NCBI GenBank assembly: GCA_016125045.1
Contig: WGML01000005.1
Span: 62,001 to 126,000, forward strand
DNA length: 64,000 nucleotides
Reading direction: 5' to 3'
Source: a bacterium
GTDB lineage: Bacteria > Pseudomonadota > Alphaproteobacteria > Caulobacterales > Hyphomonadaceae
In this document: positions 1 through 6,998 of the stretch, piece after piece
How positions within the stretch are numbered: position 1 is the stretch's first letter
Layout: each line of letters starts with the position of its first letter
Notes under the pieces: generated by a model
What the model was told of the DNA's origin: nothing
Databases searched by the model: none
Seen by the model: the letters and a program-made list of their open reading frames with translations, nothing else
Position numbers and translations under genes: made by a program

Positions 1-642
<642 letters not shown>

Positions 643-4506: not shown

Positions 4507-4541
4507 GCCGCTGATGGAAAGTGCTGCAGGGACGACTGAAT

Positions 4542-6998
4542 ATGACCGAGCCGCTGCTGATTCTCGTCTCCGGCGCCGCCGCCTTCGGCCTCGCGGCCTT
4601 GCTCTGGTCGCTGCGGATTTCGGACGGCGCACGCGGGGCCGCCCGGAAGTTCAAGGAGGAAGCCCAGAAGCTGCGTGACCGGCTGGCCCGCGCCGACAGC
4701 GTGTTCGGCGCCCATCCGGGCGTCATCGTGGTCTGGGAGGATGACGCCGCCGACGACAGCGCCGCAAAGACCGGCGACTGGGGAAGCCCCAGCGTCTACG
4801 GCTCGCCGGTGGCGCTGATGGGCCTGTTGCGCTTCACCGACGACGCCGCGTCCGCCAATCCGGCCGTGCGGATTCTCGAAGGGCTCGCCGATTATGAGGC
4901 GCGCGACGGCGCCGGCCAGGACGCCACCCTGCGCGAGCGGCTGAAACAGCTGCGCACCGAGGGCGCGCCCTTCTCGCTCACCATCATCGGCCCGTCGGGG
5001 CGCTTTCTTGAGGCGGACGGACGCACCGCCGGCGCCCGCGCCGTGCTCTGGATCACTGACACCACGATCAAGGGGCTTGAGGAATCGAGCGCCCGCGGCC
5101 GGCTCGAGGAGGCCCGCCAGGTCGTCGCGCGCAATCCGATGGCCTTCCTTGAAATGCTCGGGAAAGCGCCCTTCCCCGCCTGGCGCATGGCGAGTTCCGG
5201 CAAACTGCAATGGGTGAACGAGGCCTATCTCGACGCGGTCGGGGCCGGATCGATGGACCAGGTGCTCGATCGCCAGATCATGCTCGACCAGCACATCACC
5301 ACCCAGGCCCACAAGACGATCACCGCCGGCGCGAACACCACCGACGTGCGCCATGTCGTCGTCGGCGGCGACCGCAAGACCTTGCGCGTGATCATGTTCC
5401 CGCTGACGGCGGGGCTCGGCGGCATGGCGCTCGATGTGACCGCGGAGGACTCCTTCCGCGAGGCGCTTGAGGCTCACACCAAGGCGCACGACGAGACGCT
5501 CAACCATGTCGCCGACGCGGTCGCGATATTCGGTCCGGAGCGGAAGCTGATTTTCCACAACCACGCCTTCGCGGAGCTGTGGGACCTCGACCCCGCCTAT
5601 CTGCGCGAAAAGCCGGACCATGGCTCGCTGCTCGACCGGCTGCGCGAGCGTCGCAAACTGCAATCCCGCACCGACTACGCCAAATGGCGGGCCGAGCAGC
5701 TCTCCTATTCGCAGGGCGCGAAGGACACGCTGTCGGAAGACATCTGGACGCTTCCTGACGGCCGCGTGCTGCGCGTGACCCGTCAGCGCCACCCCCTCGG
5801 CGGCCTCCTGATGATCTGCAAGGACATCACCAACGAACTCGCGCATCAGGCGCGCTACAACGAACAGATCAAGGTGCAGAGCGCGACGCTCGACAACCTC
5901 CGCGAGGCGGTGGTCGTGTTCAAGGCGGACAGCAAGCTGCGCCTGCGCAACCGGGCGTTCGAACAGCTGTGGAACATTCCGCCTGAACGGCTGAAGGACC
6001 AGCCGGACTTCGACACGGTCGTGGAGTGCTGCACGGAGATGTTCCACGACCGCGCCGTGTGGGCGAACATCAAGGCGCGGGTCACCAATCCCGACCCGGA
6101 TTACCGCGTCTCCGACACCGGCGTGATGCGCACCTCCAACAACAAGACGCTGGTCTGGCTCACCCAGCCCCTGCCCGACGGCGCGACTCTCATTGCCTTC
6201 ATGGACGTCACCGCCCAGCGCCAGGTCGAGACCGCGCTCAAGGACCGGGCGGAGGCCTTCGCGGCGGCGGACCGGCTGAAGACCGAGTTCGTGCACAATG
6301 TCTCGCGCCAGCTCCGCGCGCCGCTGACGACGATCCTCGGCTTCGCGGAATTCCTCGAAAGCGAAAAGCCCGGGGCCCTGAACGACAAGCAGAAGCAACA
6401 GGTCGGCGCGATCCTCTCGGCGTCCGACCATCTGTCGAAACTGATCAGCAACATTCTCGATCTCGCCATGATCGAGGCGGGGCGACTCGATCTCGATCTC
6501 TCCGACGTCAACCTGCGGCGGGCGATCGACGATTCGGTCGATCTTCTGGTTTCGACCGCCGACAAGACGAAGGTTCGCGTCGAGGTGCAGTGCGACGAGA
6601 AGGTGGGTACGATTCACGCCGATGAGCGGCGCATCCGCCAGATCCTGTTCAACCTGCTGTCGAATGCGCTCCGCTTCACCTCGCCGGGAGGGCTCATCCG
6701 GGTGGAGGCGAGCCGCGAGGACGGGGTGGTGCGTCTCACCGTCACCGACAATGGCAAGGGCGTGCCGTTCGACCGCCAGCCGAGCGCGTTCGACAGTTTC
6801 ACCTCCGGCGATCAGCGGGGCGCCGGGCTCGGTCTCGCCCTGGTGCGCTCGTTCGTCGAGCTGCACGGGGGCCAGGTGCTGATGAAATCCGCGCCGGACG
6901 CCGGCACGACGGTGCTCTGCTTCTTCCCGGAAACCGCCATGCCGCGCGGGTCACGGGGCGAACTCAATCTCGGCGCCGAGGCCGTGACGCTCCAGTAG
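4542..6998 (+). CDS. divL: DivL-like PAS-domain sensor histidine-kinase-family protein with non-histidine (Arg) phosphoacceptor position
   Basis: N-terminal TM (LLILVSGAAAFGLAALLWSL), PAS-like repeats, HisKA-like FVHNVSRQLRAPLTTILGFAEF, HATPase N/G boxes (NLLSNALRFTSPGG, DNGKGVP, GAGLGLALV). ORF opens at GTG 4521; ATG 4542 preferred. Orthology to DivL is inferred from architecture. Confidence 0.75.
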   Translation: MTEPLLILVSGAAAFGLAALLWSLRISDGARGAARKFKEEAQKLRDRLARADSVFGAHPGVIVVWEDDAADDSAAKTGDWGSPSVYGSPVALMGLLRFTDDAASANPAVRILEGLADYEARDGAGQDATLRERLKQLRTEGAPFSLTIIGPSGRFLEADGRTAGARAVLWITDTTIKGLEESSARGRLEEARQVVARNPMAFLEMLGKAPFPAWRMASSGKLQWVNEAYLDAVGAGSMDQVLDRQIMLDQHITTQAHKTITAGANTTDVRHVVVGGDRKTLRVIMFPLTAGLGGMALDVTAEDSFREALEAHTKAHDETLNHVADAVAIFGPERKLIFHNHAFAELWDLDPAYLREKPDHGSLLDRLRERRKLQSRTDYAKWRAEQLSYSQGAKDTLSEDIWTLPDGRVLRVTRQRHPLGGLLMICKDITNELAHQARYNEQIKVQSATLDNLREAVVVFKADSKLRLRNRAFEQLWNIPPERLKDQPDFDTVVECCTEMFHDRAVWANIKARVTNPDPDYRVSDTGVMRTSNNKTLVWLTQPLPDGATLIAFMDVTAQRQVETALKDRAEAFAAADRLKTEFVHNVSRQLRAPLTTILGFAEFLESEKPGALNDKQKQQVGAILSASDHLSKLISNILDLAMIEAGRLDLDLSDVNLRRAIDDSVDLLVSTADKTKVRVEVQCDEKVGTIHADERRIRQILFNLLSNALRFTSPGGLIRVEASREDGVVRLTVTDNGKGVPFDRQPSAFDSFTSGDQRGAGLGLALVRSFVELHGGQVLMKSAPDAGTTVLCFFPETAMPRGSRGELNLGAEAVTLQ

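Follow-up and report, generated by a model that had tools for sequence, protein, structure and literature searches.

Arginine at the phosphoacceptor position of a Hyphomonadaceae DivL orthologue, one of several substitutions at this site

The window analyzed here, a 64,000 nucleotide stretch of a Hyphomonadaceae genome, carries an open reading frame that is the DivL orthologue of this bacterium based on sequence, tree position, copy number, synteny and predicted fold, and in which arginine occupies the phosphoacceptor position of the HisKA domain. DivL is a cell-cycle protein that derives from a histidine kinase but cannot function as one, and the version described here departs from the usual form genuinely, though to a modest degree. 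Other residues have also replaced tyrosine at the DivL acceptor site, and arginine recurs there in another family; what is new is the residue itself, and that this site, for which a single departure had been described (Ala in Magnetospirillum), varies repeatedly. By analogy with the family, the window DivL is very probably a multi-PAS pseudokinase that would control the CckA-ChpT-CtrA pathway by binding and conformational change. The relevant features of the window are given below, where row counts refer to a residue table of 162 rows, in which 161 retrieved DivL-type cores were set alongside Caulobacter DivL.

1..642, + strand: 3' part of ahcY, a gene conserved next to divL
4542..6998, + strand: divL orthologue, 818 aa (ATG at 4542, stop at 6996-6998)
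5499..5846, + strand: PAS_7 domain, residues 320-435 (Pfam PF12860; predicted fold)
5877..6206, + strand: last PAS domain, about residues 446-555 (PAS_7/PAS_4 stretches; predicted strands and helices)
6261..6497, + strand: DHp (HisKA) two-helix domain, residues 574-652 (Pfam; helices of the model)
6294..6296, + strand: His585, one helical turn ahead of Arg589
6306..6308, + strand: Arg589 (CGC), the phosphoacceptor position, corresponding to Caulobacter Tyr550
6309..6311, + strand: Gln590 at H+1, where an acidic residue is usual (Gln in 114 of 162 rows)
6315..6317, + strand: Arg592, equivalent of Caulobacter Arg553, a DivK~P contact (Arg in 159 of 162 rows)
6318..6320, + strand: Ala593 at H+4 (phosphatase-motif residue absent)
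6342..6344, + strand: Phe601, equivalent of Caulobacter Tyr562, a DivK~P contact
6621..6935, + strand: HATPase_c (CA) domain (Pfam, residues 694-798; N, G1, F and G2 boxes intact)

Translation of the divL frame could alternatively begin at 4521, where there is an in-frame GTG. Around the acceptor site the frame reads ...DRLKTEFVHNVSRQLRAPLTTILGFAEFLE..., and the H-box is FVHNVSRQLRAPL, with Arg589 within it. The first-pass annotation had described a HisKA H-box with Arg as the acceptor residue and intact HATPase boxes, and both observations were confirmed: CGC at 6306-6308 encodes Arg589, and all four ATPase boxes are present (N, QILFNLLSNALRFT; G1, DNGKG; F, FDSF; G2, GAGLGLALV). Pfam matched PAS_7 twice in the window DivL, as well as HisKA at residues 580-647 (62.5 bits) and HATPase_c at residues 694-798 (94.3 bits), the latter two well over the cut-off. 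The last PAS domain adjoins the DHp helix on its N-terminal side. The overall layout, an N-terminal helix followed by several PAS domains, DHp and CA, is that of a DivL protein. Upstream of the window (C5:56000-62500), genes for a response regulator, a sensor kinase, a PTS EIIA-like protein and HPr, as read from their sequences, precede ahcY and divL.

When the protein was compared with all solved structures, the closest was that of Caulobacter crescentus DivL (4q20, E-value: 2.3e-57), which leads the next match (E-value: 8.4e-31) by 26 orders of magnitude. Arg589 pairs with Tyr550 of 4q20, and the alignment is gap-free nearby. In the predicted full-length model, which has a mean pLDDT of 78.7, helices span residues 557-606 and 615-645, Arg589 lies mid-way along the first of these DHp helices, and 4q20 is among the top Foldseek matches (41% identity over the core); as the pTM of this model is 0.35, the relative placement of its domains is uncertain. 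In trees, 58 DivL rows including Caulobacter DivL were split from 10 other kinases by one branch (support 96). The window DivL falls with Caulobacter DivL, away from PleC/DivJ-type and other kinases, and groups with the nearest genus (support 97; 99/98 in a second tree), with Hirschia, Henriciella and other Hyphomonadaceae among the named relatives in the same neighbourhood. divL is present, as a rule in one copy, in 103 of 105 family genomes and in 245 of 249 from the order. For 40 of the 78 named relatives, Rhizobiales and Rhodospirillales among them, the retrieved flanking sequence contains an ahcY homologue. The DivJ and PdhS family models matched only the kinase core of the window DivL, far below the curated cut-off; for this reason, and because the H-box His is lacking, the protein is not PleC, DivJ or PdhS. 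Orthology to DivL, as first proposed from the sequence, is thus borne out by the tree, the residue table, ahcY synteny and single-copy distribution.

The window DivL shares with Caulobacter crescentus DivL (4q20) the multi-PAS, DHp and CA arrangement, a core that is approximately 41% identical and a non-His acceptor residue, and CckA and CtrA are encoded in the window genome. The equivalents of Caulobacter Arg553, Thr557, Gly561, Ala582 and Ala601 are kept, and among the DivK-contact positions R592, T596, G600 and A623 are retained. The two proteins differ in that the window DivL has Arg for Tyr550, Gln for Glu551, Ala for Thr554 and, at two further DivK-contact positions, Phe for Tyr562 and Gln for His579.

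Tyr is found at the acceptor position in 29 of 29 nearest relatives, so the change from Tyr to Arg arose in the window lineage; every sampled member of the Hyphomonadaceae with a readable site, except the window genome, has Tyr. In the 162-row table, the site is Y in 149 rows, V in 4, H in 4, R in 2, S in 1, T in 1 and a stop codon in one. Among 77 named relatives it is Y in 67, H in 4, A in 3, F in 2 and C in 1. This second sample was not selected on the acceptor site, as the patterns used lay in the CA domain, and the remotest of its His rows may represent proteins other than DivL. When the columns surrounding the acceptor site were left out of tree building, at least 8 changes at this site were required. 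That the substitution is independent, as had been suggested, is upheld by the Tyr-bearing relatives, the tree and the residue table. The DivL Tyr is held to be conserved in the literature, with Ala in Magnetospirillum as the exception (PMC4211667). Magnetospirillum magneticum DivL resembles the window DivL in having a non-Tyr, non-phosphorylatable acceptor residue (PMC4211667), but this residue is Ala rather than Arg and the lineage is distant. Ala is also found at this position in Telmatospirillum and two other alphaproteobacterial records.

Several DivLs in this survey are of separate interest. Small clades with Val or a regained His at the acceptor position were observed in genus g35 (L117, L118 and L249) and genus g33 (L115 and L250); the His-bearing DivLs of these clades are not ordinary kinases, as H+1 is Gln or His. 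In L216 (genome G606, C187:1706-3742), an in-frame TAG stop falls on the Tyr codon of a DivL core that is otherwise open. L318 (LNFC01000022.1), from a record titled Acidobacteria bacterium Ga0077551, is a Hyphomonadaceae-like DivL (59% identical); the bin has probably been given a wrong label or contains sequences of mixed origin.

When 398 order-level genomes were screened by pattern, one further Arg protein emerged, in genome G203 of another family. Because the H-box pattern matches close spellings only, this count of Arg proteins is a lower bound.

C1:260038-260066, - strand: Arg-type DivL of G203 (L352), FVDNVSRQLRDPL, in an open frame

The G203 DivL is full-length and 40% identical to the window DivL over residues 100-796, and, like it, has Arg at the acceptor position, Gln at H+1 and an intact frame. 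Its sister, L263, has Tyr (support 100/100). Arg therefore arose at least twice in the order, and that of the G203 DivL is of separate origin. Arg at the DivL acceptor site is rare, yet also seen elsewhere. Two other pattern matches (L351 and L353) were dropped as they are not DivL, and L266, which has Arg, was not taken as a firm further origin because of its very long branch.

These comparisons also bear on whether the codon might be a sequencing or assembly error, a suspicion that could be raised by the window genome being the single member of its genus in the comparison set. Such an error is extremely improbable. The close relatives have Tyr codons (TAC or TAT), from which CGC is two adjacent changes away, so a base-call slip is unlikely; both changes would have to fall in one codon within a normal frame with normal neighbours; and Arg is seen again in G203, the genome of which is 99% complete.

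The kinase and phosphatase reactions of HisKA proteins require an acceptor His, an adjacent acidic residue and Thr or Asn at H+4. In the window DivL, Arg589-Gln590 stands in place of the active signature (acceptor His followed by Glu or Asp), and the H+4 residue is Ala, compared to Ser in near relatives and Thr in Caulobacter. As the acceptor His, the H+1 acid and the H+4 Thr/Asn are all absent, neither reaction is expected. Gln at H+1 is typical of the relatives and is nothing peculiar to the window DivL. Judged from its sequence, a phosphoryl-transfer role for this protein is very unlikely, and the loss of all three residues is consistent with the non-catalytic role favoured in the first-pass annotation. 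An active kinase using another residue, such as His585, might be proposed from the intact HATPase boxes and from the location of His585 one turn from Arg589, but this is barely credible for three reasons. First, other DivLs have His585 beside Tyr589 (L024 and the Rhizobiales proteins with FVHHVSY), so His585 is not a displaced acceptor. Second, the H+1 acid and the H+4 Thr/Asn are missing. Third, Caulobacter DivL is inactive both as a kinase and as a phosphatase (PMC4211667) and binds ATP poorly. An alternative alignment that supplies an acceptor His is likewise unlikely, given that His585 is shared by Tyr589 DivLs.

In Caulobacter, DivL binds DivK~P via the receiver-docking face of its DHp domain, and a published docking model places the Tyr550 hydroxyl over the DivK phosphorylation site (PMC4211667). 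The Y550H substitution leaves DivK~P binding unchanged and impairs growth and shape (PMC4211667), indicating that residue 550 matters in this species. In Hyphomonas neptunium, which belongs to the same family (Hyphomonadaceae) as the window genome, DivL, CckA, ChpT and CtrA are essential while DivK is dispensable, and DivL binds DivK in a two-hybrid assay (PMC7200025). By extension from these family members, the window DivL would act through protein contact. Free DivL would favour CckA kinase activity, leading to CtrA phosphorylation via ChpT, while docking of DivK~P on the DHp helices would bend the core and reverse the effect on CckA. The side chain of residue 589 would tune the docking surface and carry no phosphate, and Arg may alter docking strength or phospho-specificity. 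The change from Tyr to Arg was perhaps made via a tolerated intermediate, His or Cys, either of which is one base change from each.

Alternatively, Arg589 could be a convergently selected gain, with its cationic side chain pairing with the phosphoryl group of DivK~P to give altered, sharper charge-based phospho-specific sensing. While this would fit both the placement of the Tyr550 hydroxyl in the docking model (PMC4211667) and the separate origin of Arg in G203, where the protein is otherwise intact, the hydrophobic and small residues found at the site point to tolerance more than to selection for charge, and we consider such a gain unlikely. The survey provides a natural mutational series at the acceptor site of the best-studied bacterial pseudo-histidine-kinase: Arg (at least twice), Val, His, Ala, Phe, Cys, Ser and Thr. 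This series lets the role of the residue be probed, and indicates that a phosphorylatable side chain is not required at this position.

All domains of divL show dN values far lower than dS, and DHp is as constrained as the others. The gene is therefore maintained and not decaying, and its DHp domain is under purifying selection. At 24 of 369 sites that are invariant among ten near relatives, the window DivL differs; three of these differences (Y589R, S593A and Y601F) are located in helix alpha-1. On the window branch this helix has a share of 8.9% of total length, versus 4-6% elsewhere. Faster evolution of the DHp helix was rejected (Fisher p = 0.20 for alpha-1 and p = 1.0 for the whole DHp). 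Arg553 and Tyr562 of Caulobacter DivL contact DivK~P (PMC4211667), and S593A and Y601F, both on the docking helix, could alter docking, with an enrichment that is not significant (p = 0.20). Phe at position 601 is common across the class (Y in 83 and F in 71 of 162 rows).

The window genome encodes CtrA (76% identical), a CckA-type hybrid kinase whose frame includes a receiver domain (52% over DHp-CA), and two kinases of the DivJ/PdhS type that have a normal His and DivJ as their best family model. DivK was absent from this assembly, which is 82% complete and in which the best generic receiver has 32% identity, compared to the 52-68% identity of the DivK carried by nearly all family members. 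In relatives, divK lies in a pleD-divK-dinB-RidA-HIT block with lpxK a few kilobases off (gene names read from sequence). pleD, dinB, RidA, HIT and lpxK are likewise missing from the 82%-complete assembly, and the branched-chain aminotransferase and regulator-kinase pair from beyond HIT are found on C3 (C3:30000-49500), beside unrelated genes. As lpxC is present, lipid A synthesis, and with it a requirement for lpxK, is expected in this organism; with lpxK missing although lpxC is present, the absence of DivK is most simply explained by a hole in the assembly, and the missing divK looks like an assembly gap.

True loss of DivK would cast Y589R, S593A and Y601F as decay of an unused docking surface, with DivL acting on CckA via its PAS domains only. 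The absence of any DivK above 32% identity agrees with this, as do the dispensability of DivK alongside an essential DivL in H. neptunium (PMC7200025) and the loss of both DivK and the DivL kinase core in Rhodobacterales (PMC9430884). We nevertheless judge it decidedly unlikely, as the divK neighbours are missing along with divK, including an lpxK that should exist unseen, the DivJ/PdhS-type kinases are retained, and the DHp domain combines low dN/dS with no significant excess of change. The idea that losing DivK led to the substitution was set aside because the missing block includes lpxK and because DivK coexists with non-Tyr DivLs in other genomes: G213 and G261, both with Val at the acceptor position, carry DivK at 71% and 69% identity, respectively, and G157, with His, carries it at 65%.
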